NCBI GenBank assembly: GCA_017553245.1
Contig: JAFZMT010000066.1
Span: 1-12,671 of the forward strand
Direction: 5' to 3'
Source of the DNA: Methanomicrobium sp.
GTDB lineage: Archaea; Halobacteriota; Methanomicrobia; Methanomicrobiales; Methanomicrobiaceae
DNA: 12,671 nucleotides
A model generated the notes under the pieces. That model saw only the letters and a list, made by a program, of their open reading frames with translations. It was not told the DNA's origin and ran no database searches. The position numbers and the translations under genes are program-made. Shown piece by piece: positions 1 through 12,671 of the stretch (position 1 is its first letter; every line of letters begins with the position of its first letter).

Positions 1-504
1 GGCATCCTCCTTGTCTATCTCACGCCCGGGTTTGCGCCCGACCTCTACGGATACCTCTTCGGCAATATCCTGCTCGTCCCCGCCGGCGAAATCGTCTTCA
101 TGGGCGCCCTCCTTGCCGCAATCATCGCGATAACGGCAATCTTCTATAACCAGCTCCTTGCTGTCACCTTCGACGAAGAATACGCCTCGGTCATGAACAT
201 AGCGTCCGAAAAGATAATCGCCCTCCTCCTCATAATGACGGCGGTGACAATCGTCATGCTCATTCAGGTTGTCGGCATCATCCTCACGATTGCGCTTCTG
301 ACGCTTCCGGCGGCAATCGCACGCGAGTTTACCGGCAGACTCGACAGGATGTTCTATCTCTCGACAATACTCGGCATCGCCTTTACGACCTGCGGCATAT
401 TCCTCTCATACACACTTGACGTCCCCTCGGGCGCGACGATAATCCTCATCGGCGCCGCGGCATATATCATTGCCCTCTGCGCAAAGACGCTGTGTATAAG
501 ATAA
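1..504 (+). CDS. ABC-3 family metal transporter permease, 3' part
   Basis: This frame is open from base 1, so the gene begins before the window; the 167 residues present are the C-terminal part of a membrane permease of the ZnuB/MntB/FhuG-like ABC-3 family, which imports zinc, manganese or iron with a substrate-binding protein and an ATPase. The sequence shows the family signature LFGNIL near residue 19, followed by hydrophobic segments at about 32-50, 72-105, 115-137 and 142-163. The stretch VVGIILTIALLTLPAAIA and the later SYTLDVPSGATI are typical of ZnuB-type proteins. The N-terminal half, the ATPase and the binding protein are presumably upstream and not visible. Metal specificity cannot be read from this fragment. 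The gene ends with TAA and runs into an AT-rich spacer with long T runs, consistent with termination there. Confidence 0.86.
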   Translation, partial: GILLVYLTPGFAPDLYGYLFGNILLVPAGEIVFMGALLAAIIAITAIFYNQLLAVTFDEEYASVMNIASEKIIALLLIMTAVTIVMLIQVVGIILTIALLTLPAAIAREFTGRLDRMFYLSTILGIAFTTCGIFLSYTLDVPSGATIILIGAAAYIIALCAKTLCIR

Positions 505-563
505 TCCGGAATGGCACGTAAGAAAAGGAATATACAATAATATCGTATCTGAAAAATTACGCT

Positions 564-597
564 AAAAATTTAAAAAAAGAGATTTTTTTGAATTTTT
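564..597. terminator. A/T-rich inverted repeat, probable bidirectional terminator
   Basis: The arms AAAAATT-T-AAAAAAA and TTTTTTT-G-AATTTTT are complementary except for one position and enclose GAGA. It lies between two convergent genes (permease + and PEGA protein -), so each strand ends in a T-rich tract after its gene. More T runs separated by CAG follow up to 652. T-rich tracts are the usual archaeal termination signal; the bidirectional use is inferred. Confidence 0.55.
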
Positions 598-651
598 TAT
601 TTATCGTTTTATCAGATTTTTCAGCATTTTTTTCAGTTTTTCAGTATTACT

Positions 652-2013
652 TCAGTCTTTCCTTCTGATTGCGGACAGTACAACCGCGACCGCAAAAATA
701 CCGATTATTGCCGCAAACGCAGGACTGCCGGACTTCTGAACCTGACCCTGATTCGGTGTGAGCGAACCCGAGACCGATGACGTCGTACCTGCCGTAACCG
801 TTGCCGTAACCGTCGAGTCATAGTAACCCGTAAGCGTGTATTTCACGGAGTATGTGCCTTCAGGAAGCGAAAGCGTAAGCGGAGTGATTCCCTTGTAATC
901 GTTGTTGATGTAGATGTTTGCTCCCGACGGCATCGAGGAGACCGCGAGGTAACCCATTGCCGGACCCGTGCTCTGAAGCGGGATTGTGACCGACGCGGTT
1001 CCGCCGCCGTTAACCGTGACGCTCAGGGATGCATCCTGATATCCCGTCAGTTTTGCCGTGACCGTGTGTGTTCCCGCCGCAACATTGCTTATGACCATGC
1101 TGCCGGATACGGGTGAGATACCCTGATAGACGCCGTCAAGGTAGATATACGCTCCGCCGGGCGCCGATGAAACATAGAGAGTTCCCGTGGGCGCGGCATA
1201 TGCCTGAAGCGTGGGGTAGACATACGAGGTCTGACCCGGGTTTACGGTAACCGAGCTTTCCCAGGGGTAGTAACCCGATTTTTCGAGTTTGAGCGTATGT
1301 GCGCCCTTTACGACACCCGAGATTGTCTTGGGCGAGTTGCCGACGTATTTGTCGTCAAGGTAAACCGATGCGCCCGAAGGTGTCGAACTCACGTAGATCG
1401 AACCGTAGGACTCAATCGGCGTAAGCGTTGCCGATGCGGTCGCGGTCGATCCCGAGTAGACGTAGACCGAAGATGCCCACTCCTGATATCCGGACTTTGT
1501 GACTCTCACATTGTGATAGCCCTGCGAATATCCGTTCTGCGTCACCGGCGTCGTTCCGACATAGATCTCGTCTATGTATACAACCGCGTTTGACGGGTAT
1601 GATGTGACCGATATTGAACCGGATGACTGAATCGGGTTGAGAGTGAGGTAGTAGTCAAGATTCTCTCCCGCCGAAGGCATACTCAGACGGACCGTATTGC
1701 TCTGAGTATATCCGGATTTTGCCGCATATGCGGACCTGAGCGGCGCTCCCGTGGAGTAGACCGCCATTGTGTAAACGCCGTTGGCGGTTGTGCCCTGATA
1801 AGCGCCGTCAACGTAGATTGAAGCGTCGTCGACATTGGTGTGGAATGTTATCCATCCCATGTCTCCGCCGACATCACCGCCGATGGGCACATCCCATGTG
1901 CCTGTTGCACCGCCGGTCTGGTCTCCTTCGGCACTTGCAGGAACGGCAATTGCAAGAAGTGCAATAAGAAGGAGTGCTATAACTGAACCAGTTTTGCTTG
2001 ACATATATATCAT
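652..2013 (-). CDS. Secreted cell-surface protein with five PEGA domains and a PGF-CTERM-like tail
   Basis: A 453-residue exported protein made almost wholly of tandem PEGA beta-sandwich repeats, at about residues 53-125, 132-200, 204-270, 277-347 and 353-419. Repeats 2-5 show the typical pattern S-x-P-x-x-A-x-(I/V)-Y-(I/L), a Y-x-G turn, then T-P/S-P and a K-S-G-Y or L-T-G-Y near the end; repeat 1 is the most divergent. Residues 11-28 form a signal peptide with an ASA-E type cleavage site. The C-terminus has SPAF (430-433), a hydrophobic segment to about 448 and IRRKD, which resembles the PGF-CTERM signal processed by archaeosortase A, with A in place of G. PEGA proteins are common on methanogen surfaces, and an envelope or adhesion role is inferred only. 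Two ATG codons (2013 and 2004) are possible starts; neither has a clear ribosome binding site. It stands alone, with a TATA-like box upstream. Confidence 0.85.
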   Translation of the reverse strand: MIYMSSKTGSVIALLLIALLAIAVPASAEGDQTGGATGTWDVPIGGDVGGDMGWITFHTNVDDASIYVDGAYQGTTANGVYTMAVYSTGAPLRSAYAAKSGYTQSNTVRLSMPSAGENLDYYLTLNPIQSSGSISVTSYPSNAVVYIDEIYVGTTPVTQNGYSQGYHNVRVTKSGYQEWASSVYVYSGSTATASATLTPIESYGSIYVSSTPSGASVYLDDKYVGNSPKTISGVVKGAHTLKLEKSGYYPWESSVTVNPGQTSYVYPTLQAYAAPTGTLYVSSAPGGAYIYLDGVYQGISPVSGSMVISNVAAGTHTVTAKLTGYQDASLSVTVNGGGTASVTIPLQSTGPAMGYLAVSSMPSGANIYINNDYKGITPLTLSLPEGTYSVKYTLTGYYDSTVTATVTAGTTSSVSGSLTPNQGQVQKSGSPAFAAIIGIFAVAVVLSAIRRKD

Positions 2014-2066
2014 TGCAAATTTAGTTCTCTCATTTTTTAATCCTTTGCATAATTTTTTGCAAATTT
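2013..2066. repeat. TTGCAAATTT direct repeats flanking the PEGA promoter
   Basis: Identical 10-bp copies of TTGCAAATTT occur at 2013-2022 and 2057-2066, 44 bp apart, one on each side of the TATA-like box; the distal copy includes the palindrome CAAATTTG (2060-2067). The arrangement suits an operator pair, but A/T-rich words recur by chance here, so this is only a candidate. Confidence 0.3.
2031..2040 (-). promoter_or_regulatory. TATA-like box of the PEGA gene
   Basis: On the minus strand the sequence TTAAAAAATG lies about 23 bp before the ATG at 2013 and 32 bp before the one at 2004. That spacing puts transcription start at or just before the start codons and fits a leaderless or very short-leader mRNA. 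Identified by eye. Confidence 0.4.
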
Positions 2067-2167
2067 GACCGGCAAAAGTCCTGTATCAAGCGGGCTGCGG
2101 TATGGCGGCGGCACGAAAGTCGCCCAACCAAAGCCGCAAATGCGATAAAAAGATAAATTAACGAAGA

Positions 2168-2190
2168 TAATCCGATTTGAATACGGATTA
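2168..2190. repeat. Inverted repeat TAATCCG-N9-CGGATTA
   Basis: Perfect 7-bp arms with a 9-nt loop, in the spacer between the PEGA gene and the 3' end of the ABC permease operon. On the minus strand it is followed by a T-rich stretch (2145-2160), so it may form a terminator hairpin for the permease operon; an operator is also possible. Confidence 0.35.
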
Positions 2191-2195
2191 CGTCG

Positions 2196-2239
2196 TCTGC
2201 GCATCGGAGTATCCGTGAATATGTGTATCTGCGCATCGG
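2196..2239. repeat. TCTGCGCATCGG direct repeat pair
   Basis: The 12-bp word TCTGCGCATCGG occurs at 2196-2207 and 2228-2239, 32 bp apart, with partial similarity continuing as GT.TCC after each copy. It lies immediately beyond the stop codon of the minus-strand permease, next to the 8-bp palindrome TCCGCGGA (2258-2265). Function unknown; it could be a decayed duplication. Confidence 0.45.
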
Positions 2240-2265
2240 TGTCCATGCACATTACTATCCGCGGA

Positions 2266-3342
2266 TCAGAGTCTCTGCGCAAGCCTTGCGGAATATGCCG
2301 TCACAAAGTATGATAGGCATAAAGCAACGGCAAGCATGGGGATAAGAACAATGAAATGCTCGGCACCTATCGATCCCGTAGCCAGCCGCACTATGATGTT
2401 TCCCGAGTTCAGCGGTATCGCGAGGGCAAAAGCAAGCACGACGACGGTCGCTATCGAGAACATGAACTGCGCATTCGTCCTCTCGCGGTATCTCATCGCG
2501 AAGGTTGCGGCAATCAGTATCAGAATGAACGCAACAACGCTGATATGCATAAGAATCTCGAGGATTCCGCCGATATAAATTCCGTTTACAATCAGCAGTA
2601 TCATCCACGTTCCCGCCTGCAAAGGCACGAGTATGAATGCCGCAAGTATCTTGCCCCAGACCATGTCGGTGAAACTCACCGGCGTCGACATCAGGGTCTC
2701 AAGCGTCCTGTTCTGCGACTCCTCGGTTATCATATCGATTATAAGGGCACCCGATATGATTGCGGGCATGAACACGAGTAAAGGTATGAGAACGCCGTAT
2801 ACGAACTCATAGAAGTCGCCCGCGGGATTGACGGCGGGGATGTTCATCTCCACAGGCATCCCCGTAAGCCTGTCCGAACGGGCATCGCGCAGCTCGGTCT
2901 CGTAGTCCGTAAGGACATTCTTCAGCTTTGCGCTGACAATGCCGGATTGGATATCGTTCTCTATGAGATATATCGTCACCTTCATCGGATTCATGGTCTC
3001 TTCCATGTTCTTGGGCACCCAGACCACCGCCGCCAGCTGACGTTCGCTCAGAGCGGATACCGCCGGCGAAAGCTCCATCGGATAGACAATCATGTTCGGA
3101 TCGTCCATCAGTTTGACATAGAGATGCGAGGTTTCGCCCGCATAGGCTATCGGATACTTCATCTTGGAATACTGACTCATCGCATCCGGGTTGTACATCG
3201 ACGCAAGCCCCACAAGGAGGAAGGATGAGAACATGGCGATGAAGAGCTGCAAAAGCAGAGCCAGAACTATGGTCTTTTCGTTGATGAGACCCCTGAATTC
3301 CTTCTTTGCGACGATCTTGCAGTTCTTTGAATTGATTCTCAT
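2266..3342 (-). CDS. ABC-2 type (NatB-like) transporter permease
   Basis: A 358-residue membrane permease of the ABC-2 superfamily, NatB-like, expected to pair with a NatA-type ATPase to export an unknown substrate (ions, peptides or lipids are all possible). A basic N-terminus with the KKEFRGL motif typical of this family precedes TM1 (about 24-47). A large extracytoplasmic domain spans about 50-180, followed by five more hydrophobic segments at about 183-204, 228-252, 258-281, 293-310 and 327-347. The cytoplasmic-loop motif EESQNRTLETLMSTPVS (207-223) is a strong NatB-family signature. The start ATG overlaps the stop of the upstream permease gene as ATGA, so the two are translationally coupled. 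The ATPase is probably the divergent gene at 5438. Family assignment is firm; substrate is unknown. Confidence 0.88.
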   Translation of the reverse strand: MRINSKNCKIVAKKEFRGLINEKTIVLALLLQLFIAMFSSFLLVGLASMYNPDAMSQYSKMKYPIAYAGETSHLYVKLMDDPNMIVYPMELSPAVSALSERQLAAVVWVPKNMEETMNPMKVTIYLIENDIQSGIVSAKLKNVLTDYETELRDARSDRLTGMPVEMNIPAVNPAGDFYEFVYGVLIPLLVFMPAIISGALIIDMITEESQNRTLETLMSTPVSFTDMVWGKILAAFILVPLQAGTWMILLIVNGIYIGGILEILMHISVVAFILILIAATFAMRYRERTNAQFMFSIATVVVLAFALAIPLNSGNIIVRLATGSIGAEHFIVLIPMLAVALCLSYFVTAYSARLAQRL

Positions 3343-5213
3343 CCGAATACCCCCAGTACGAAATAGAGATTATACAGCGTATGCACGAAGCCCGCCGCAA
3401 TTATTCCCATGATATACAGGCGCAGACCGCCGACCCTGACAACGGAGCCGCAGATAAAGGTCGTGACAAAGTGCAGAACCAGCGGCAGCCAGAGCACCTG
3501 AAGGCTTGCGAACATGACCGCGCCGAACACGGAATCAGAAATTTCGGCAAGCGTCGCAAAGAGGAGAAGTTTCTCGCCTATGAGGAAGCCGACCGCAACC
3601 GCGAATGCGCCGATTGCGAGGTTCTTCCACGTCATGTATTCGGGACGCCTGAGGAAGAGCGCATAGATTCCGACCGACTTGAACACCTCCTCAACAAGCG
3701 CCGCCGAAAGCATAATCATAATCAGCGAGAGCGGCATGGGGAAGTTGAAGAGAAGGACAAGCAGCATCAGCTGCATGAGGAATACGAACGGAATCATGCA
3801 GATTGCGACGAACACCAGAGATGTGTTCACGTATCTCTTCGAGATGACGCCGTCGACGAACTCGACAAGCGCGGTCAGAATCTTATGCTGTCCGAAGAGC
3901 CTCTCGCCGTTGTAGTTCCTGACGGCGAAGTAAAAGATCACGAAACTGACAAGATAGAAGATAATCGTGGAATAGAGGTATTCATCGGCTGTAAAGCCGT
4001 CGCCCTGAATCTGATAGATAATCAGGGTAAGCGGGGAAATCTGACTGATAACGTGGATGTTGGCAAATATCGCCGGGAAGAAGATATACGAGGATGCGAC
4101 CGTTGAGAAGAATATCGAGATGAACGAAAGTTCCTTGAAACTCCTCGCTATCATTCCGATGAGCAGTGCCGCCGAGAGGAAGAATAGGATTACCGGAAAC
4201 AGCGGCAGGAAAATTATCAGGTCAGCCTGAATATAGAGGATGAGCCCTACCGCGATTATGCTCATCATCGCAAGATAGGGAAGCATCTTGCCCGCAATTA
4301 TCATCCACGGGCTTACGGGCGCACTTAAGAGAATCTCGCCGCGCCTGTCGATTCTCTCGTTCATGATGCTCATCATGAAGAACTGCGAGGTGAAATAAAG
4401 CGGGAAAATGAAGACGAATACCAGAACTATCGTGTCAAACGGCAGTGAGGCACTCATCTGCGAGGGGACTTTATACTGAATAATCTCAAGGTCGCCGGAG
4501 CGCAGGATATCGGTATAGCGGCTTAATGCGGCATCGCGACCTTCATCGGCGATGAGATACCTGCGCAGTTCCTCAACGGGAATCTCTATCTCCTCGGACG
4601 GCAGGGGAATCTCGATTATGTTCTGCGGCGCGGGGGCGCGGTAGGGGTTTGAATATGAGAATGCCGCACGTCCCATCTGGGTTGCGGTGAAGTCAATCAC
4701 GCTCTCGACCGTCTTTTCGTCTATCCAGACGGGATATGCCGCATAGAGATCATCCTGACGGTTGTAGAACGCAATCTTATAGCGCGAATAATCGCGGTCA
4801 AATGCCAGAAGCGCCGCATTGCTGCGGTCGGTGCCGGACGTGAGGACTTTGTCGCCGGCGATAATCAGATCGAAAGCGCCCCGATACTGCGGGTCTGAAA
4901 GATACTGCGGATGCGCCGAGAAGTAGCCGCTCGGGACTTTGAGGATGATAAAACGGCTGTCATAGCCGATGATTCCCGCGCCGGCGTCTGAATCCGTTAA
5001 AACCGTATATACATTGTCTTCGAGGTGGATGCCGCTGCTCTGGGCAAAGCCCATGACGATTACAAGGAGAATGAAAAGAGCCGCGACTATGGGGATGAGT
5101 CCCTTATCCATTGTCCCCGCAAAACGTCTTATCTCCCACTTGGAGATCTTCAGAATCCTTGACAGGGCGGTTTTTCCGTCCGTTACCGTATTGCTGCCGC
5201 CCGTCTCACTCAA
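3339..5213 (-). CDS. ABC-2 permease fused to a PrsW-type intramembrane protease domain
   Basis: This 624-residue protein has two parts. Residues 1 to about 435 are an ABC-2 permease: TM1 at about 38-56, an external domain of about 200 residues, the loop motif ERIDRRGEILLSAPVSPW (286-303), then several TM segments. Residues about 462-624 are a separate multi-TM domain carrying all four PrsW (M82, glutamic-type intramembrane protease) motifs: E508-E509-x-x-K512, F543-x-x-x-E547, H581 with G589, and H611-x-x-x-N615. In bacteria PrsW cleaves anti-sigma factors, and CPBP-type protease domains are known fused to NatB-like permeases; here the FxxxE and EExxK motifs favour PrsW over CPBP. The start is TTG, with no ATG before codon 35 and an in-frame TAA shortly upstream, so the exact start is uncertain. 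It is the first gene of a two-gene unit and ends by ATGA overlap with the second permease. Confidence 0.85.
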   Translation of the reverse strand: MSETGGSNTVTDGKTALSRILKISKWEIRRFAGTMDKGLIPIVAALFILLVIVMGFAQSSGIHLEDNVYTVLTDSDAGAGIIGYDSRFIILKVPSGYFSAHPQYLSDPQYRGAFDLIIAGDKVLTSGTDRSNAALLAFDRDYSRYKIAFYNRQDDLYAAYPVWIDEKTVESVIDFTATQMGRAAFSYSNPYRAPAPQNIIEIPLPSEEIEIPVEELRRYLIADEGRDAALSRYTDILRSGDLEIIQYKVPSQMSASLPFDTIVLVFVFIFPLYFTSQFFMMSIMNERIDRRGEILLSAPVSPWMIIAGKMLPYLAMMSIIAVGLILYIQADLIIFLPLFPVILFFLSAALLIGMIARSFKELSFISIFFSTVASSYIFFPAIFANIHVISQISPLTLIIYQIQGDGFTADEYLYSTIIFYLVSFVIFYFAVRNYNGERLFGQHKILTALVEFVDGVISKRYVNTSLVFVAICMIPFVFLMQLMLLVLLFNFPMPLSLIMIMLSAALVEEVFKSVGIYALFLRRPEYMTWKNLAIGAFAVAVGFLIGEKLLLFATLAEISDSVFGAVMFASLQVLWLPLVLHFVTTFICGSVVRVGGLRLYIMGIIAAGFVHTLYNLYFVLGVFG

Positions 5214-5221
5214 CCCCGAAG

Positions 5222-5261
5222 TATGTGATTTATCAAAATTCGATTATGTGGTTTATCAAAA
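5222..5261. repeat. 17-bp direct repeats upstream of the permease operon
   Basis: TATGTGATTTATCAAAA (5222-5238) and TATGTGGTTTATCAAAA (5245-5261) differ at one base and are 23 bp apart. They lie 9 to 48 bp upstream of the TTG start of the permease-protease gene. A third, shorter copy, GTTTATCAAA, lies at 5396-5405 directly before the TATA-like box of the divergent ATPase gene. The placement at both promoters suggests a shared regulator binding site. Confidence 0.55.
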
Positions 5262-5280
5262 ATATCTTAGATTATATCAG

Positions 5281-5289
5281 AAATATAAA
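5281..5289 (-). promoter_or_regulatory. Candidate TATA box of the permease operon
   Basis: On the minus strand TTTATATTT lies about 68 bp before the TTG start. With the usual 25-bp spacing transcription would begin near 5258, placing both 17-bp repeats at the transcription start and in the leader. Another AT-rich word at about 5269-5276 is an alternative. Confidence 0.35.
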
Positions 5290-5405
5290 GCTATGCTTAA
5301 CTTAGGTATTTTCTCACGCTTATTTACAAACTTATCCGATCTTACATTCTTAAAAGAGCGTTGCCGCCGCATGAAAGAACTGCAACAGCAAGAAAGTTTA
5401 TCAAA

Positions 5406-5415
5406 GTTATAAAAG
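5406..5415 (+). promoter_or_regulatory. TATA box of the ABC ATPase gene
   Basis: GTTATAAAAG is centred about 27 bp before the ATG at 5438, the spacing expected for leaderless archaeal transcripts. The purine-rich AAGGA at 5431-5435 is too close to the ATG to be a good ribosome binding site. The GTTTATCAAA repeat sits directly upstream, where the BRE would be. Confidence 0.55.
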
Positions 5416-5437
5416 AAAAGATACGCTTGAAAGGAAT

Positions 5438-6331
5438 ATGATACATGCCCGTTCAATAATAAAGGATTACGGCAATTTTCGTGCTCTTGACGGCGTCGAT
5501 TTCGATATAGAAGAGCCGGGGATATTCGGCATAATCGGTCACAACGGCGCGGGTAAGACCACCCTCTTAAAGATAATGTCGGGACTCATCCCCGCGACTT
5601 CGGGCGAACTCAACATCAACGGCGTCGATGTCATAAATAATCCCGACGGACTCAAGGAACAGATGGGATACCTGCCCGAAGAGTCGCGCCTCTACGAGAA
5701 CATGACGGCGCAGGCGTATCTGACGTTCTTCGGCGAGGTCTACTCCATGAAGCCCGAGGAGATTCACTCGCGCACAAAGGAACTCTTTCGGAAACTCAAC
5801 CTCGAAGTCGGCGACAAAAAACTCGGAGAACTCTCGAAAGGAATGAAGAGGAAGGTTGCGATTGCCAGATCACTCCTCCACGACCCCTCGCTTCTGGTCT
5901 ATGACGAACCGACCTCCGGTCTTGACCCCATGACATCGCGCTACATAAGCGAATTCCTGCGCGAACTCAGAAACGAGCGCAAAAAGACCATACTTCTCTC
6001 GGCGCACAACCTCTATCAGGTCGAAGAGCTCTGCGACCGCGTCCTTATCCTTCAGAGAGGAAAGACGGCGGCATTCGGGACAATGGCTGAGCTGCGCGAG
6101 AACTTCGGTTCCGTATACTACGAGGTCGATTTCGTTGCCGAAGACAAAGGCGTGTTCGACGGCATTATCACGGAATACTCGGAAGCCGCGGGAGTCATCT
6201 CGGCAAAGGTCAATGACATCGATTCCCTAAACTCACTGACGCAGGCGGTCACCGCGGGCGGCGGCAGGATAAAGAAGATAGAATCGCACTACCCCAGCCT
6301 TGAAGACCTGCTGGTTAAAATCGGCAGATAA
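5438..6331 (+). CDS. NatA-like ABC transporter ATPase
   Basis: A 297-residue nucleotide-binding subunit that would energise the divergent ABC-2 permeases from the cytoplasmic face. Walker A is GHNGAGKTT (34-42), the signature LSKGM is at 132-136, Walker B is LLVYDEP (152-158) followed by the D-loop SGLDP, and the switch histidine is H190 in SAHN. The Q-loop position reads GYLPEE with glutamate (E81) in place of glutamine, which is frequent in ABC-2 export ATPases. About 85 residues after the nucleotide-binding domain form a C-terminal extension typical of the NatA/CcmA group. It is the only ATPase near the two permeases, so pairing is likely though the genes are divergent. A TATA-like box 27 bp before the ATG suggests leaderless transcription, and a hairpin plus T run follows the stop. 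Confidence 0.93.
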   Translation: MIHARSIIKDYGNFRALDGVDFDIEEPGIFGIIGHNGAGKTTLLKIMSGLIPATSGELNINGVDVINNPDGLKEQMGYLPEESRLYENMTAQAYLTFFGEVYSMKPEEIHSRTKELFRKLNLEVGDKKLGELSKGMKRKVAIARSLLHDPSLLVYDEPTSGLDPMTSRYISEFLRELRNERKKTILLSAHNLYQVEELCDRVLILQRGKTAAFGTMAELRENFGSVYYEVDFVAEDKGVFDGIITEYSEAAGVISAKVNDIDSLNSLTQAVTAGGGRIKKIESHYPSLEDLLVKIGR

Positions 6332-6380
6332 ACGCAAGGCAGATTATCGCAATTATCATTTTTCAAAATATTTCCTTTTT

Positions 6381-6413
6381 TTCAGAATTATTCATTTTAT
6401 ATTCTGAATTTTT
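6381..6413 (+). terminator. Hairpin plus T-run terminator after the ABC ATPase
   Basis: Perfect 8-bp arms TTCAGAAT (6381-6388) and ATTCTGAA (6401-6408) with a 12-nt loop, followed at once by TTTTT and preceded by another T run. It lies 50 bp beyond the ATPase stop codon. The rest of the spacer up to the tRNA is AT-rich without a convincing gene. Confidence 0.6.
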
Positions 6414-6494
6414 AATCCCGAACTGCCTCTTTTGAGAGATTCAAAATCAACGATAATCACGATTAGAGTATAAAACGCCGGAAAACGGAATTTA

Positions 6495-6510
6495 CAAAAA
6501 ATCAAAAATT
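6495..6510 (-). terminator. T-rich terminator of the tRNA-Lys gene
   Basis: On the minus strand AATTTTTGATTTTTTG begins 12 nt after the tRNA 3' end. Paired T runs are the standard archaeal stop signal after tRNA genes. Confidence 0.5.
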
Positions 6511-6521
6511 GCAAAACGAAG

Positions 6522-6595
6522 CGGGCCTGGGGGGATTTGAACCCCTGGCCTACGGATTAAGAGTCCGTCGCTCTTCCTGACTAAGCTACAGGCCC
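6522..6595 (-). tRNA. tRNA-Lys (anticodon CUU)
   Basis: The minus strand folds as a cloverleaf. The acceptor arms GGGCCTG and CAGGCCC pair over 7 bp with discriminator G73. The D arm starts GCTTAG, the anticodon stem is ACGGA/TCCGT with loop CTCTTAA, and the T arm has the loop TTCAAAT. The anticodon CTT (6559-6561) reads AAG lysine codons. The outermost T-stem position is A49 opposite C65, the only mismatch I see. No intron is present and CCA does not appear to be encoded. It lies between two plus-strand genes but is transcribed on the opposite strand, so it needs its own promoter. Confidence 0.95.
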
Positions 6596-6627
6596 CGTTG
6601 TTGTGCCTAAATAAATCTGATTTTTGA

Positions 6628-6636
6628 CTTAATAAG
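6628..6636 (-). promoter_or_regulatory. Candidate TATA box of tRNA-Lys
   Basis: CTTATTAAG on the minus strand is centred 37 bp before the mature tRNA 5' end, giving a leader of about 10 nt, which is normal for a tRNA precursor. TTTATTTAGG (6606-6615) is nearer but would start transcription inside the tRNA. Confidence 0.35.
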
Positions 6637-6650
6637 CCTTTCTGATATTG

Positions 6651-6659
6651 CCTAAATAA
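6651..6659 (+). promoter_or_regulatory. TATA-like box of the TrkA-N/DHH gene
   Basis: CCTAAATAA is centred about 28 bp before the ATG at 6684, and no Shine-Dalgarno sequence precedes that ATG, consistent with a leaderless transcript. Confidence 0.5.
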
Positions 6660-6683
6660 GGATGAGGTACAATCTATACTTAT

Positions 6684-8162
6684 ATGCCTGAGAATCTGCC
6701 AAATCGATCATCTGATAGAGTCAAGTATATGATCCTCGGATGCGGAAGCAACGGCTACAACGTCATCGAAGAACTGGCACACGACGACGAGTCCATTCTC
6801 ATAATTGACCAGGATCCCAAGAGGGTCAATGATCTGAGAGATCAGAATTACGAAGCGCTTGTCTACGATATAGCCGATCCGACCATTTTAGAGAAACTGC
6901 CCATACCCGAAGTGGTATTCATTCTCTCCAATGACAAGAACGCAAATCTGGATGCGGTCAGAAAAGTAAAGGAAGTTCACCCTTCAGCCTATGTCATTGT
7001 AAGAGCCATGGACAGACTGAGCCTCCCGCTCCTTGAGCAGGCGGGCGCGGATGCCGCACTCTACCCGCAGGAGGTCTACGCAAAGACCGCGGTTCACACA
7101 ATGAGGAGACTGCACTCCTCGCGACTTGCGAGAAAGCTCTACCACTATCTCTCGGACTGCGAAGGAACGATGGGTATCATCCTTCACACAAACCCGGACC
7201 CCGACGCAATCTCAAGCGCAATGGCGCTCTACGTAATCGGAAAAGAGGCGACCGGCGGCAAGCTCTCCTGTAAAATAATCTACGACGGCAAGATCGGTCA
7301 TCAGGAGAACCGCGCATTCGTCACTCTCCTCGATATCCAGCTTCAGAGGGTAACCGAGGAAAATATGGAGGATACCATCAGGGGATGCGACTACATCGCG
7401 CTTGTCGACTCTTCAGCCGCGGGTGTAAACAATTTCCTGCCGCCGGATACCAAGGTCGACATCATCATCGACCACCACAAGATAATGGAAGAGGAGAACA
7501 GGTCGGTTCACTTCGTCGACGTAAGACCCGGAATGGGCGCGACGGCAAGTATTCTGACCCAGTATCTTCAGGAACTCGACATTCTTGTCGATCAGAAGGT
7601 GGCAACCGCTCTTCTCTACGGTATCCGCGCCGACACGCACGACTTCTCGAGGAACACGACGCCGCAGGACCTTAACTACGCGGCATTCCTCCTCCCGCTC
7701 ACCGACAATGAGCTTTTAAACAAGATAACGTCGCCGTCAATGTCCATAGAGACCGTCGAGGCGATGGGACTTGCAATCAAGAACAGAAAGGTGCAGAACG
7801 GCTATCTATTCACAAACGTCGGATATGTCAAGAACCGCGACGTAATCCCGCAGGCAGCCGACCTTCTCGTTCAGCTCGAAGGTATCAACACGGCAGTCGT
7901 CTACGGTATCGGCGACGACTCAATCACTATATCCGCAAGGAACAAGGATATCAGGATGCACGTCGGAAACGTCATGAAAGAGGCATTCGATGAGATAGGC
8001 GAGGCGGGCGGACATGCCACGATGGCGGCGGCAAAGATACCCCTCAACTCGTTCGCGGTTATCAAAAACAAGGAAGAACTCCTCAATCTGATAAGCGAAC
8101 CGCTGTTAAAGCGCTTCACGGATACAATCGGTCTGGGAAAGGAAGACAAGAACGAGGCATAA
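6684..8162 (+). CDS. TrkA-N domain / DHH-DHHA1 family phosphoesterase
   Basis: A 492-residue cytoplasmic protein joining a nucleotide-binding regulatory domain to a phosphoesterase. Residues 14 to about 130 are a TrkA-N Rossmann domain with G19-x-G21-x-x-G24 and the acidic D42 that normally binds the NAD ribose. Residues about 160-345 are a DHH domain: HTNPDPDAIS (168-177) holds metal ligands, D242 is in VDSS, the DHH triad is D263-H264-H265, and D317 follows. The DHHA1 part ends with GGH (442-444). DHH/DHHA1 proteins of this type cleave nanoRNA, pAp or cyclic di-AMP, and coupling to a Rossmann domain suggests control by NAD(H) or another nucleotide; the substrate here is not known. No membrane segment is present, unlike bacterial GdpP. 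It is probably transcribed from its own promoter and followed by mptE 96 bp later. Confidence 0.88.
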   Translation: MPENLPNRSSDRVKYMILGCGSNGYNVIEELAHDDESILIIDQDPKRVNDLRDQNYEALVYDIADPTILEKLPIPEVVFILSNDKNANLDAVRKVKEVHPSAYVIVRAMDRLSLPLLEQAGADAALYPQEVYAKTAVHTMRRLHSSRLARKLYHYLSDCEGTMGIILHTNPDPDAISSAMALYVIGKEATGGKLSCKIIYDGKIGHQENRAFVTLLDIQLQRVTEENMEDTIRGCDYIALVDSSAAGVNNFLPPDTKVDIIIDHHKIMEEENRSVHFVDVRPGMGATASILTQYLQELDILVDQKVATALLYGIRADTHDFSRNTTPQDLNYAAFLLPLTDNELLNKITSPSMSIETVEAMGLAIKNRKVQNGYLFTNVGYVKNRDVIPQAADLLVQLEGINTAVVYGIGDDSITISARNKDIRMHVGNVMKEAFDEIGEAGGHATMAAAKIPLNSFAVIKNKEELLNLISEPLLKRFTDTIGLGKEDKNEA

Positions 8163-8180
8163 GCCCGACCGCATAATTCG

Positions 8181-8229
8181 GAACGGGCGGAATCGGGCAG
8201 AATATTGCGGAATATGGCGGAATAGGAAT
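8181..8229. repeat. Degenerate 10-bp tandem repeat upstream of mptE
   Basis: Five successive units of 9-10 bp begin with GAAY: about GAACGGGCG, GAATCGGGCA, GAATATTGCG, GAATATGGCG and GAATAGGAAT. The word GCGGAAT recurs at 8187, 8207 and 8217. It fills the spacer between the DHH gene and mptE and is followed by GGGCA repeats (8233-8256) up to the mptE start. The period equals about one DNA turn. Confidence 0.6.
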
Positions 8230-8258
8230 TTCGGCAGGGCATAGGGCAGGGCAGAGCG

Positions 8259-8924
8259 ATGAAATTTGAAGACTGGGAACCCCATTACCAAAAAATCCTC
8301 GATTTTTTCGGGTTTGACAGAACCGGCGATGAGGACGCCGCCGTTCTGGCACGTTCACTTACGGATAAGGATGATATTGCCGCTTTAACAGCCGCGATCA
8401 AAGGCAGAAAGGTCACGGTATGCGGCAATGCACCCTCGCTTTCGGATGATCTCAGACTCGGCAGGCGAATACGCAGAGGAAGCGGCGCTGACGAAAGCAA
8501 TAACGCGGACGAGGTTATCTTCGCCGCGGACGCCGCCGCCGACAGACTATTCAAAAAAGGAATCCGTCCCGATATCGTCTCTACCGACCTTGACGGCTGC
8601 GAGGATACTTTTCTTGAGATGAACCGCGCGGGAACAATCATGGTCGTCCACGCGCACGGCGACAACGTGCCGCTGATAAAGAGCTGGATACCGCGATTCG
8701 AAGGACCTCTTGTTCTCACAACCCAGAGCCGACCTTTTGAGGGCATGTACAACTTCGGCGGGTTCACGGACGGCGACAGGGCGGTTTTTGCCGCCGACGA
8801 ACTCGGTGCCGCCGGGATAACACTCGCAGGCTTCGACCTTGACGATAAGAATGTCGTGCCCATGAAGCACGGCAAACTCATGATTGCCAGGGATCTTCTG
8901 GCACTCCTCGATTTCAGGGCTTGA
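8259..8924 (+). CDS. mptE: 6-hydroxymethyl-7,8-dihydropterin pyrophosphokinase (DUF115 family)
   Basis: A 221-residue cytoplasmic enzyme of the DUF115 family (archetype MptE of Methanocaldococcus). It transfers pyrophosphate from ATP to 6-hydroxymethyl-7,8-dihydropterin, a step in making tetrahydromethanopterin, the C1 carrier of methanogenesis. Motifs visible are GNAPSL (56-61), AADAAADRL (89-97), GIRPDIVSTDLDG (101-113), HAHGDN (131-136), FGGFTDGDR (166-174) and GFDLDD (191-196), rich in the acidic and histidine residues expected for Mg-ATP binding. The length is near the family norm. A basic-acidic stretch at about 68-83 looks like a small insertion between the first two motifs. The ATG is preceded by GGGCA repeats rather than a clear ribosome binding site. 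The last codons run into a 12-bp tandem repeat that continues past the stop. Confidence 0.9.
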   Translation: MKFEDWEPHYQKILDFFGFDRTGDEDAAVLARSLTDKDDIAALTAAIKGRKVTVCGNAPSLSDDLRLGRRIRRGSGADESNNADEVIFAADAAADRLFKKGIRPDIVSTDLDGCEDTFLEMNRAGTIMVVHAHGDNVPLIKSWIPRFEGPLVLTTQSRPFEGMYNFGGFTDGDRAVFAADELGAAGITLAGFDLDDKNVVPMKHGKLMIARDLLALLDFRA

Positions 8925-9000
8925 TTCCGGGTTTAATTCAGGACCTGATTTCACGGTTTAATTCCGGGTCCTATTCAGGGTGATTTCGGGTTTGAACGGG
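8909..9000. repeat. Degenerate 12-bp tandem repeat across the mptE stop codon
   Basis: Six consecutive 12-bp units (8909-8980) followed by two shortened 10-bp units (8981-9000) share the core ATTC-x-GGG, with a consensus near TTGATTCCGGGT. The first unit encodes the final LDFRA codons of mptE, the second holds its stop, and the rest fill the spacer before the radical SAM gene. The unit TTAATTCAGGAC with its neighbour forms TCAGGACCTGA, a perfect 5-bp-arm palindrome. Confidence 0.7.
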
Positions 9001-9041
9001 ACTGCGGAGTTAACACATAACAATAACGCAATATCACGAAG

Positions 9042-10796
9042 ATGGAGAGAAAAACCGCTTATATTCTTGACGGCTACGTCGATGAACCCGCCTGCCTCGG
9101 AGTGCCGCCCTACATCTCACCTTATATCCGATACTGCGCGGGTGTCTGCGCCGAAAACGGCTTTGAGGTCTCTTATGCCACAATCGACATGCTCCGCAAA
9201 GACCCCGCAGTCATACTTGGGATTGAAAAGAGCGATCTCTTCATTTGCATCGCGGGCGTCACGGTTCCCGGGAAGTATCTCGGCGGAACGCCCGCCGATT
9301 CGGGGGAGATAAACCGCATTGCCGCATCACTGAGGAGACCGCGCAAGGTCCTCGGAGGTCCGATTGTCTTCGGAAACGCTGCCGGCGGCGGCAGCAGGGC
9401 GGAAAGCGACAGCTACTCCCTCTATGACTGCCTCTTGAGCGGAGAGATAAGCGACGCCCTTGACATATACCTCAAATCATACTTTGAAGACGGTGATGGG
9501 CAGGGCGGCAACGTAAAACGCGGCAGAAGAGCATCGGCATCGGGCACGGATGCGGACGATGCGGGCAGGCTCATCCGCGGCGAACTGAAATATGAGGATA
9601 TTGACCGCCGAAGCGTCCTCGGAAGCGGCGTCATAAAACTCCACCCGTCATACCCGCATCTCATCTGCGAACTTGAGACGGCACGCGGCTGTTCACGCGC
9701 CGAGGTCGGCGGATGCGCGTTCTGCACCGAGTTCCTCTACGGAATGCCGCGATACCGAACGACGGAGGGCATCACGGCGGAAGTCGAAGCGCTCTACAAT
9801 GCCGGCGCACGATATTTCAGACTCGGCAGACAGCCCGACCTCCTCGCATACGGCGCCGAATCGCATATGGGGGTAGCCAGACCCCGCCCCGAAAAGATAG
9901 AAGCGCTCTTTAAAGGGATTCGTGAGAGCGCGCCGGAACTCAGAGTCCTGCACATCGACAACATAAACCCCTGCACAATCGCGACATACCCGGATGAGTC
10001 TAAAGCGGCGCTGGAAGCCATTGTCAGATACAACACCGCGGGCGACACCGCGGCTCTTGGTCTTGAGAGCGCAGACCCCGCAGTCGTTGAGGCAAACAAC
10101 CTCAAAGCTTATGCCGATGATGTCTATACGGCTGTCAGAATCATCAATGATGCGGGCGCGGTCCGCGACGGCAACGGCGTCCCGAAACTCCTCCCTGGAC
10201 TCAACTTCGTCACGAACCTCGCCGGCGAGACCGAAGAGACCTATGACTTAAACGAGAAGTTCCTGCGGCGCATCCTCGACGACGGACTAATGACGCGGCG
10301 CATAAACATCCGGCAGGTAATGCCGTTCGAAGGGACGAAAGCCTACGGCGCAAACACCCTCGGCATGCACGCAAAGCGCTTTAAGCAGTTCAAGGAGAGC
10401 GTCCGCGAAAAATTCGACCTGCCGATGCTGAAGAAAGTGCTCCCGCAGGGAACGGTTCTTGCCGACGCCGTCGTCGAGGTCTCGGGAAACATCTCTTTTG
10501 CAAGACAGCTCGGCTCCTACCCGATTCTCATCGGCATCCCGTATGAACTCCCCATCGGCACAGTCGGCGACTTCTTCGTAACCGACTGGGGATACCGCTC
10601 GGTTACGGCATTCCAAAAGCCCTTCAGAATTAACGCGGCAAGCCACGCCGTCATAAAAAAACTCCCCGGTATGGGTAAGAAAACCGGCACGAACGTATTT
10701 GTTAAGCGCCCCTTCGACAATGCCGCAGAGTTCGAGAAGGTTGCGGGGGTTCAGTATTACACGAAATTTCTGGACTTCAGCCGAGAGTCCCGGTAA
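9042..10796 (+). CDS. Radical SAM protein with C-terminal helix-hairpin-helix (COG1031 type)
   Basis: A 584-residue protein of uncharacterised function. Residues 5 to about 145 form an N-terminal Rossmann-like region resembling the domain found before the core in many radical SAM enzymes. A low-complexity, probably disordered linker rich in G, D, R and A spans about 149-178. The radical SAM core starts near 208 with the iron-sulfur ligands C217, C225 and C228 in ARGCSRAEVGGCAFC, a CX7CX2C spacing instead of the classical CX3CX2C. LPGMGKKTGTNVF (541-553) near the end is a helix-hairpin-helix motif, which suggests contact with nucleic acid. This architecture matches archaeal COG1031 proteins annotated only as radical SAM enzymes with a C-terminal HhH. 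The substrate is unknown; an RNA or tRNA modification role is only a guess. Its 3' end overlaps the convergent M50 gene by 20 bp. Confidence 0.87.
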   Translation: MERKTAYILDGYVDEPACLGVPPYISPYIRYCAGVCAENGFEVSYATIDMLRKDPAVILGIEKSDLFICIAGVTVPGKYLGGTPADSGEINRIAASLRRPRKVLGGPIVFGNAAGGGSRAESDSYSLYDCLLSGEISDALDIYLKSYFEDGDGQGGNVKRGRRASASGTDADDAGRLIRGELKYEDIDRRSVLGSGVIKLHPSYPHLICELETARGCSRAEVGGCAFCTEFLYGMPRYRTTEGITAEVEALYNAGARYFRLGRQPDLLAYGAESHMGVARPRPEKIEALFKGIRESAPELRVLHIDNINPCTIATYPDESKAALEAIVRYNTAGDTAALGLESADPAVVEANNLKAYADDVYTAVRIINDAGAVRDGNGVPKLLPGLNFVTNLAGETEETYDLNEKFLRRILDDGLMTRRINIRQVMPFEGTKAYGANTLGMHAKRFKQFKESVREKFDLPMLKKVLPQGTVLADAVVEVSGNISFARQLGSYPILIGIPYELPIGTVGDFFVTDWGYRSVTAFQKPFRINAASHAVIKKLPGMGKKTGTNVFVKRPFDNAAEFEKVAGVQYYTKFLDFSRESR

Positions 10797-11934
10797 ATTC
10801 GGGAGAATAACGCAGTATCATCTCGCTGCTCACAAGCCCGATTATCTCGGTTCCCTCAAAGACGGGGAGAACGCTGACCTCTTTATCGGACATCATCAGC
10901 ATTGCGTCATAAAGCGTGGCATTCGCGGTCACGCCGAAGATGTCCCCCGAAATTACCCCGCCCGCGGTCATCACCGAAGTATCAGTTCTGCCGGCAATGT
11001 CGTGTATCGAGATCATTCCGATAACGTGCCCCAAATCGTTTATTACGGGACATCCCGTGACCTTTTGCGAGACCAACCGTGATGCGACATCATCAAGGCT
11101 GTCGGTGTCATGCACATAAGCGACGTCGGTATTCATCACATCCGTAACTTTGACCGCCTTTATCCGCTCGCTCAGCACGGTCATCGAGTTCTCCTGAGTG
11201 GCCCCGAGGAAAACGAACAGGGCAATAAGAATCAGAAGGAAATTCAGCCAGATTATGCCTGCGACCGCAAATATTACCGCAAATACCTTGCCTATGTCGG
11301 ACGCCGTCTTTGTGGCGCGTGTGCGGGAATACTTCAGTGAGAGAAGCCCGCGGAGGATTCTGCCGCCGTCCATCGGAAATGCCGGTATCATATTGAAGAG
11401 GAAGAGGAATATGTTGAGAATCCCGAGATATCCGAAGATATAGAAGAGGATAAGATCGGGCAGCGGGCTTTCAGCCGAAAGTGCCGTAAATCTTACAAGG
11501 GCATACGCGACCGCACCTGAGAGGATGCCGATGAAAAGGCTTGCGAGCGGTCCCGAAATTGCCGTCCAGAACTCGCTCTTCGGCGTGCTTCTTCCGCGGT
11601 CATCTATCTCCGAGATGCCGCCGAGGAGCATGAGAGTGACCTCGTTTACCCTGTGACCGTATCTCATCGCGGTCAGACAATGCGCCATTTCATGGAGGAA
11701 TACCGCCGCAAACAGACATAGGGTGACGGCGCCGCCGAGCAGATACGGTGTCATGCCTGCCGCAAGAAGAGAGATGTCGAGGTTTTCGGTTCCGTAGACA
11801 GCCTCAAGAAGTCCGACGGTATAGGTGATGTCACTTCCTATGACATATGAGAAGACGGGAATTATCAGCAAAAATGTGATGTGGAGTCTCACGGGCACGC
11901 CCGCAAGCGATCCGATTTTTATAGAATCCTCCAT
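10777..11934 (-). CDS. Site-2-type M50 metalloprotease with two CBS domains
   Basis: A 385-residue integral membrane zinc protease of the archaeal S2P/Rip group, which cuts substrates within the membrane. The zinc motif H81-E82-M-A-H85 lies in a hydrophobic segment, and the third ligand D189 is in NMIPAFPMDGG (181-191), the classical NPxDG site with MIP in place of the short form. Transmembrane segments are at about 17-33, 62-88, 127-150, 160-182 and 215-243. Two cytoplasmic CBS domains follow, at about 263-314 and 319-376, and probably sense adenine nucleotides to gate activity, as in related archaeal proteases. The ATG at 11934 is 51 bp from the divergent PRC-barrel gene and shares its promoter spacer. 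The stop codon lies inside the end of the radical SAM gene on the other strand. Natural substrates are unknown. Confidence 0.92.
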   Translation of the reverse strand: MEDSIKIGSLAGVPVRLHITFLLIIPVFSYVIGSDITYTVGLLEAVYGTENLDISLLAAGMTPYLLGGAVTLCLFAAVFLHEMAHCLTAMRYGHRVNEVTLMLLGGISEIDDRGRSTPKSEFWTAISGPLASLFIGILSGAVAYALVRFTALSAESPLPDLILFYIFGYLGILNIFLFLFNMIPAFPMDGGRILRGLLSLKYSRTRATKTASDIGKVFAVIFAVAGIIWLNFLLILIALFVFLGATQENSMTVLSERIKAVKVTDVMNTDVAYVHDTDSLDDVASRLVSQKVTGCPVINDLGHVIGMISIHDIAGRTDTSVMTAGGVISGDIFGVTANATLYDAMLMMSDKEVSVLPVFEGTEIIGLVSSEMILRYSPEFTGTLG

Positions 11935-11955
11935 ACAGATGGATTATATTTTTAA

Positions 11956-11963
11956 CTTTTAAG
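11956..11963. promoter_or_regulatory. Central TATA-like element shared by the M50 and PRC-barrel genes
   Basis: CTTTTAAG reads CTTAAAAG on the other strand and is TATA-like in both directions. Its centre is about 26 bp from each of the two start codons (11934 minus, 11986 plus), the normal archaeal TATA spacing for leaderless transcripts. A second AT-rich word lies on each side (ATATAA at 11944-11951 on the minus side, TATTATAT at 11964-11971 on the plus side), so separate boxes cannot be excluded. Confidence 0.45.
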
Positions 11964-11985
11964 TATTATATCTTCACTGGTTATA

Positions 11986-12246
11986 ATGAAGACACAGGTT
12001 ACCGAGCTTTTCGGAATGGAGGTCTACACGGAGAAGGCAATCCGCGTCGGCATTGTTGACGATGCTATACTTAACGTCGACTCAAAAAAGATAGATTTCC
12101 TTGCCGTCAGTGAATTAAACCCCGAACTCATTCAGCTTAAGGGATTCAAGGGTATTAAGATTCCGTATCGTATCATCAGATCAATAGGCGATATTATCAT
12201 AATCAGACACTTCTCAAACATGTTCCCCTCAAAGGACGCGGACTGA
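11986..12246 (+). CDS. Small PRC-barrel domain protein
   Basis: An 86-residue protein that is essentially one PRC-barrel domain, the small beta-barrel also found in RimM and photosynthetic reaction-centre H subunits. Features are the N-terminal LFGMEVYT, the turn VGIVDDAILN (21-30), the segment IDFLAV, and a C-terminal half with GIKIPYRIIRSIGDIIII (56-73), all usual in the stand-alone archaeal family. Such proteins are common in methanogens; their role is unknown, with RNA or protein binding suggested. There are no membrane segments. The start has a TATA-like element 26 bp upstream and no ribosome binding site. The gene seems complete, but its last codons coincide with the point where composition and homology change to a bacterial gene fragment, so the C-terminal few residues (about 82-86) might not be native. 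Confidence 0.85.
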   Translation: MKTQVTELFGMEVYTEKAIRVGIVDDAILNVDSKKIDFLAVSELNPELIQLKGFKGIKIPYRIIRSIGDIIIIRHFSNMFPSKDAD

Positions 12247-12671
12247 AGAAGAATACGATAAATATCAGCCTTTTAACGATATTTTTGAAATTTGGCTTTC
12301 GGGCGACCATTATAAATGGCGTTTAATGAGAAATTACGGGATAGACGAAGAATATATCACGGGCAATAAGAGCAATAAGGAAAAGTTCATTACTTATTGC
12401 AAAGTCTTGTCTACGGCGTTCGGAAATCCCCTTTATCACTGGTCGCAGGTGGAACTAAAAGAATTTTTCAACTGTGAACTTGAAATAAACGAAGAAAACG
12501 CCGAACAAATCTGGGACTGGTGTAACGAGTATATAAGGTTAAACGATATAACGCCGCAATCTTTAATAGAAAAATCGAACGTAACGCACGTTTTTACCAC
12601 TAACGAGATTTTCGACGACTTAAAAACCTTTACAGAGATAGCGAAAAAAGGGTATAAGTTTAAGGTAATAC
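12242..12671 (+). pseudogene. uxaC: Uronate isomerase fragment, 5' truncated and running off the window
   Basis: A continuous frame without a start codon encodes an internal part of uronate isomerase (glucuronate/galacturonate isomerase, first step of hexuronate catabolism). Diagnostic stretches are FEIWLSGDHYKWRLMR, DEEYITG, KEKF, the strongly conserved GNPLYHWSQVELKEFF, AEQIWDWCNE and SNVTHVFTTNEIFDDL, in the family order. Homology starts near residue 45 of a typical UxaC, so the N-terminus, including the metal-binding HxH, is missing. Upstream in this frame there is a stop at 12200-12202 and no ATG, GTG or TTG before the homologous part. GC content is about 38 % by hand count, against 55-63 % in sampled methanogen gene segments, and the codons are A/T-ending. 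Methanogens are not known to use hexuronates. This is probably bacterial DNA joined by misassembly, or else a recent insertion. Confidence 0.85.

Follow-up and report, generated by a model that had tools for sequence, protein, structure and literature searches.

An ABC-2 permease fused to a PrsW-type protease domain, and its partner genes, in Methanomicrobiales and haloarchaea

Does an archaeal transporter carry its own intramembrane protease and, if so, what would the two parts do together? The question is raised by FUS, a gene on the minus strand of a contig assigned to Methanomicrobium sp. (GenBank assembly GCA_017553245.1, contig JAFZMT010000066.1, positions 1 to 12,671; this whole stretch of 12,671 nucleotides is hereafter the window). 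An initial annotation had described the open reading frame (ORF) as a permease of an ATP-binding cassette (ABC) exporter, of the ABC-2 type, joined to a PrsW-type intramembrane protease, and we are nearly certain of this assignment. The fused architecture and its protease-type motifs are conserved across a phylum, where the gene occurs jointly, and in conserved synteny, with genes for a second permease (PERM2) and a NatA-type ATPase. On balance, we favour the overall reading of a heterodimeric ABC-2-type exporter with a built-in PrsW-type intramembrane protease.

The fused gene and its PrsW-type domain

3339..5213, minus strand: FUS, ABC-2 permease plus PrsW-type domain; ORF of 624 amino acids with a TTG start
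3909..5213, minus strand: permease half of FUS, residues 1-435 (elbow helix, first transmembrane helix (TM1), extracytoplasmic domain, more transmembrane helices)
3342..3908, minus strand: PrsW-type domain of FUS, residues 436-624 (from hhalign, PF13367 and a domain model)
3678..3692, minus strand: EExxK motif (E508, E509, K512), identical in 40/40 fused proteins
3570..3587, minus strand: FxxxEK motif (F543, E547, K548); E547 and K548 in 40/40, F543 in 39/40
3471..3473, minus strand: H581, the extra PrsW histidine, in 40/40
3369..3383, minus strand: HxxxN motif (H611, N615); histidine in 40/40, position 615 N in 36 and D in 4
2266..3342, minus strand: PERM2, partner ABC-2 permease of 358 amino acids (ABC2_membrane_3, 56.2 bits)
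5438..6331, plus strand: NatA/DrrA-type ABC ATPase, divergent from FUS (ABC_tran, 101.7 bits; DrrA1-3_C, 31.8 bits)

FUS runs from a TTG at 5213 to a stop codon at 3341-3339, and the fused minus-strand ORF of 624 amino acids proved to be real, as first called. Its codon 1 is the sole ATG, GTG or TTG upstream of codon 35; by eye, no clear ribosome site was found for this start. The source assembly is a draft of 244 contigs and 74% completeness, in which a sequencing or assembly error might have fused two genes. This artefact is refuted, its probability being negligible, by independent records in which the fusion is unbroken, among them a circular Haladaptatus plasmid and Methanomicrobium mobile BP (L002), whose homologue is also 624 amino acids long and 90% identical.

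To assess motif conservation, we aligned 40 fused proteins sampled phylum-wide (28 of the 30 distant loci, nine protein-search hits, the window protein, L041 and L047; L122 and L136, without one intact ORF as extracted, were left out). The window protein is 22-60% identical to the other 39. Because seven residues (E508, E509, K512, E547, K548, H581 and H611) are invariant in all 40, conservation goes far beyond chance. The initial annotation had claimed a complete PrsW motif set in the right order. That claim stood for EExxK, FxxxE, H581 and HxxxN (in FUS, EEVFK, FLIGE, H and HTLYN), which are near-invariant, and fell for the glycine of a proposed HxxxxxxxG motif: position 589 is glycine in just 6/40 proteins, so this motif reduces to a lone histidine. 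The residues of EExxK, FxxxE and HxxxN each lie inside a predicted helix of the C-terminal domain (C-domain) model, and H581 lies in the helix before the last (140-160 of that model). H581 fits the additional histidine, lacking in CAAX proteases, that accompanies EExxK and HxxxD in part of a published modelling study of PrsW (PMC4602095). In two divergent lineages (L129 and L130), HxxVN and HxxMN replace HxxYN.

Like the PrsW family (PF13367; MEROPS M82; Bacillus subtilis PrsW), FUS has EExxK, FxxxE, an extra histidine and HxxxN/D, in that order and in helices. Unlike stand-alone PrsWs, it is joined to an ABC-2 permease and ends its second motif in EK, where they mostly have EN. The PrsW assignment is well supported by the motifs together with a profile match, and weakly by a domain model whose nearest folds are APH-1-like and a bare pass of the Pfam cut-off. 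Aligned by hhalign, 24 fused domains matched 14 stand-alone PrsWs of the same order with the motifs in register (Prob 93.8, E 1.7e-7), as against Prob 0.5 for CPBP proteins and 0.1 for PERM2, the two controls. The stand-alone set took 14 of 19 loci (L091-L109) and the CPBP control six of 16, while the C-domain alignment comprised 27 of 54 listed slices, the window slice, 27 of 120 listed distant-query hits and P0073. In a tree, the 24 fused domains and the 14 stand-alone PrsWs split with 100/99 support, a division on flagged long branches that would be compatible with a single origin of the fusion. A whole-genome search placed PF13367 on FUS at 3354-3821 with 24.5 bits (cut-off 23.5), and 19 of 20 listed matches in fusion-length open frames (551-753 amino acids) exceeded the cut-off, three of them only when summed with neighbouring matches in the frame. 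By hmmscan, PF13367 was over its cut-off in three of eight chosen relatives. The best PDB matches of the C-domain model, with a predicted local distance difference test (pLDDT) of 86.1, include APH-1.

Two results weigh against this assignment: hmmscan did not list PF13367 for FUS itself, and gave it for only two of 57 aligned close relatives (the window protein and 56 of 72 protein-search hits, near-duplicates and partial sequences omitted). A whole-model Foldseek search of FUS returned no match at E ≤ 1e-3. Searching PDB by sequence gave no match for full-length FUS and only noise for the C-domain and stand-alone PrsW profiles, and NCBIfam gave none for FUS at E ≤ 1 and no informative match for seven fused proteins.

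Could the domain instead be of CPBP type? FxxxH is a CPBP/Rce1 motif, as is EExxxR. We rejected a CPBP identity, since FUS has EExxK and FxxxE in place of EExxxR and FxxxH, and PF02517 matches fall elsewhere; the sole one in its own genome is on a different contig (C139). Part of the modelling study likewise gives Rce1-type CAAX proteases EExxxR, without the TM5 histidine (PMC4602095). Stand-alone PrsWs and the six CPBPs were also left unjoined by hhalign (Prob 4.4), so the failure of the fused domains to match CPBP is no disproof of deep kinship; with hhalign uninformative here, the motifs and PF02517 alone tell PrsW from CPBP. The comparison with both profile models that the initial annotation had proposed leaned towards PrsW (PF13367 over its cut-off in the whole-genome search but absent from the hmmscan list, PF02517 without a match). 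With the invariant motifs, the hhalign match and its controls, and the APH-1 matches of the domain model, this bears out a PrsW-type rather than a CPBP-type domain. NF041647 (ABC_perm_CPBP) resembles FUS in design, a protease from the larger Rce1/CPBP/PrsW superfamily coming after a permease, but its CPBP motifs differ, FUS does not match it at E ≤ 1, and its permease half resembles PERM2 rather than FUS (E 3.1e-12, 46.1 bits). Its cut-off of 435 bits was passed by 0/41 genomes of the order.

The PrsW domain of FUS is very probably catalytically active. APH-1 serves gamma-secretase as a scaffold rather than as its protease, and the domain might likewise be an inactive support for the permease. 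The appearance of APH-1 among the best structural matches agrees with such a role, the literature placing this gamma-secretase subunit, in the part concerned, in the same superfamily (PMC6588880). However, the catalytic-type residues of the fused proteins are invariant in 40/40, whereas the same part of that source gives APH-1 QExxR for EExxxR (PMC6588880), and we regard a mere scaffold as quite improbable.

Partner genes and distribution

The N-terminal half had been called an ABC-2 permease, which its predicted model upholds by matching ABC-2 exporters. Against ABC2_membrane_3 it reaches 27.8 bits, below the cut-off of 31.6; an ABC2_membrane match at E ≤ 1 is present in 50 of the 57 aligned close relatives (best 7.2e-15). 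The ATG of PERM2 overlaps the FUS stop codon (ATGA), and PERM2 adjoins FUS wherever there is room among the related loci (56/56) and in 29/30 distant loci with room. Upstream of FUS, a NatA-type ATPase gene is found in 55/56 loci with room, all 55 divergent, and in 27/29 distant loci with room, 15 divergent and 12 co-directional. On a haloarchaeal plasmid, the trio is an overlapping operon annotated as ATP-binding protein, permease subunit and permease. We are highly confident that FUS, PERM2 and the ATPase form one transporter. Like NatAB- and DrrAB-type exporters, the trio has a NatA/DrrA-type ATPase and ABC-2 permeases; unlike them, it has two different permeases, one of which bears a protease-like domain. 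A defence-system reading of the trio was discarded, since neither FUS nor PERM2 was matched by PADLOC; its matches to the ATPase were generic.

How widespread is this arrangement? Genome searches covered one phylum, protein searches the best 120 matches, and the contig scan close relatives. Among the matches listed, named records belonged to Methanomicrobiales for the close relatives and to haloarchaea for the distant query, so the phylum is one that includes both. Of 294 sampled genomes, 147 matched the fusion profile; the gene's own order accounts for 47 of these, out of 55 sampled and counting the source genome, and other families for the remaining 100. Strong PERM2 matches (E ≤ 1e-40) fell in exactly the same 147 genomes, with neither gene found alone; 55 more genomes, whose PERM2 matches were weaker (E 1.5e-15 at best), were regarded as having paralogues. 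There was one fusion-profile match in 111 genomes and two in 36; 11 of these second matches were seen, of which ten belong to the gene already matched, in pieces, and one, in G188, is PERM2. In three of the 147 genomes (G024, G213 and G271, the last at a contig end), the match does not extend into the C-domain, although the ORF in G024 (L140) does contain the C-domain motifs. In G030, the two halves of the fusion lie in different open frames, and the ORF as extracted is shorter. One genus of this order, g14, shows a clean joint loss: none of its five sampled genomes (G136, G163, G212, G217 and G266; 97-99% complete) has a match to FUS or to PERM2.

The survey for a fusion beside a NatA ATPase that had been suggested for Methanomicrobiales thus found it conserved and reaching beyond that order. 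Because the fusion and its partner recur together in 147 of the 294 genomes, the pump and the protease domain probably act jointly; this spread, the intact catalytic-type residues and the constant partner amount to strong evolutionary evidence for coupling of transport to proteolysis. The domain pair is already visible in databases: several fused members bear the NCBI name 'PrsW family intramembrane metalloprotease' or 'glutamic-type intramembrane protease', and others have both PF13367 and PF12698 in precomputed Pfam lists. As a group, the fused PrsWs may have been overlooked so far, since they are hardly picked up by the common domain model and many are annotated 'ABC transporter permease'. 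Among the open-licence literature listed in our searches, the portions available held no paper describing an ABC-2/PrsW fusion. Excerpts from that literature mention other PrsW fusions, with toxins, PilZ, FHA and more (PMC3482391), and the upregulation at translation of VNG2625C, a PrsW family protease of Halobacterium salinarum (PMC7394353). In the sections concerned, a review of archaeal membrane proteases has PrsW confined to a limited set of organisms (PMC4343526), and one of Haloferax volcanii names one PrsW-like protein (PMC9263693).

Possible functions of the exporter–protease

What, then, might the trio do? We propose that FUS and PERM2 would pair as the membrane subunits of a heterodimeric exporter, powered by the NatA-type ATPase encoded beside them, with the C terminus of FUS acting as a glutamate-dependent intramembrane protease. 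The pump could supply the protease with a hydrophobic or membrane-spanning peptide, or remove its product, and cleavage would be coupled to export or extraction; we give such coupled processing or clearance of membrane peptides an even chance. Substrates might be signal-peptide remnants, sorting-tail remnants and misplaced single-span proteins, in genome-wide housekeeping. More tentatively, the trio may be an ancient archaeal exporter–protease unit, its pump feeding peptides to the PrsW domain or pulling them from it, for housekeeping clearance of the membrane or surface processing in the phylum to which Methanomicrobiales and haloarchaea belong.

Bacteria show a link between ABC transport and intramembrane proteolysis in Ecs and RasP, which are encoded apart, the latter being an M50 (site-2) protease. 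If our proposal is true, one archaeal complex would unite the roles ascribed to Ecs and RasP as separate proteins of Firmicutes. The coupling idea is testable, since a Haloferax sp. protein is among the fusion hits (matches listed) and Haloferax is a genus with genetics. Like FUS, the Ecs–RasP pair ties an ABC transporter functionally to intramembrane proteolysis, according to part of one report (PMC2996298), but as separate genes with no fusion.

We searched for a substrate among the neighbours, clustering ORFs of at least 70 amino acids in 46 loci longer than 8 kb. PERM2 was present in 46 and the ATPase in 44, and no other neighbour was kept across the order; general membrane peptides are therefore favoured over one dedicated precursor, which leaves room for a lineage-specific substrate partner. 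The next clusters (32, 29, 28 and 27) are antisense shadows of PERM2 or the ATPase by position and strand. Next commonest on the sense strand, and named from reading their sequences, are an RDD-type membrane protein (26 of 46 loci by clustering, 26 by direct search), a lipoprotein-like protein (26 and 27) and a small SemiSWEET-like protein (24 and 25). The three form a block downstream of PERM2 (for example in L007, L008 and L010), which direct search found in no Methanomicrobium, Methanospirillum or Methanocalculus locus.

Peptidase-containing ABC exporters are an established design, and the trio might similarly handle a single precursor, with the PrsW domain cleaving it and the pump exporting it. 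A protease domain and pump half sharing one polypeptide would suit this, as would the small lipoprotein-like gene that lies convergent just past PERM2 in 27/46 long loci. That gene, however, is on the opposite strand and absent in 19/46 loci, including those of the three genera just named, and the space between NatA and FUS is at most 600 bases in 41/55 loci (more in 14/55), the clustering having covered ORFs of at least 70 amino acids. We judge dedicated export of one precursor improbable.

The window has three further features.

652-2013, minus strand: PEGA-repeat protein with four PEGA stretches, directly downstream of PERM2
6684-10796, plus strand: block of TrkA-N/DHH/DHHA1, MptE-like and radical SAM genes beside the ATPase
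10777-11934, minus strand: site-2-type protease of family M50 that carries two CBS domains; besides the PrsW-type domain, the second intramembrane protease encoded in the window

One B. subtilis substrate is cut in turn, first by PrsW and then by an M50 enzyme. By analogy, the ABC part of the trio might sense envelope stress or a peptide, and the ATPase cycle would switch the PrsW domain to clip a membrane-tethered regulator, making the pump a sensor. The first RsiW cut is made by B. subtilis PrsW, as parts of two sources state (PMC4602095, PMC3482391), and the M50/CBS protease of the window would be a possible second cutter. Yet three genes separate it from the ATPase, and an M50 match recurs in only five of 59 related loci (L002, L003, L004, L006 and L051), each time at the far edge of the sequence retrieved for that locus. 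Nor is any neighbour beyond PERM2 and the ATPase kept order-wide, the next commonest on the sense strand being in 24-27 of 46 long loci. We therefore consider signalling unlikely and retain export-coupled processing of membrane peptides as the preferred reading.

The PEGA-repeat protein has a hydrophobic tail ending in RRKD, which we take to resemble an archaeal sorting tail; among L002-L060, its gene lies beside PERM2 only in L002, L003 and L004. A link to archaeosortase/PGF-CTERM sorting was dropped, as archaeosortase A (TIGR04125) occurs in 285/294 genomes and its distribution cannot discriminate. The TrkA-N/DHH gene adjoins the ATPase in 15 of 59 related loci, in several genera. Inserts between NatA and FUS are of at least two unrelated kinds, by reading a metallo-beta-lactamase-like hydrolase and a lipoprotein-like protein with a shared HTHP/HTHA motif. 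These variable inserts were noted in L008, L012, L014, L017, L019, L022, L025, L039, L053 and L055, from records mostly titled Methanoregula or Methanomicrobiales.
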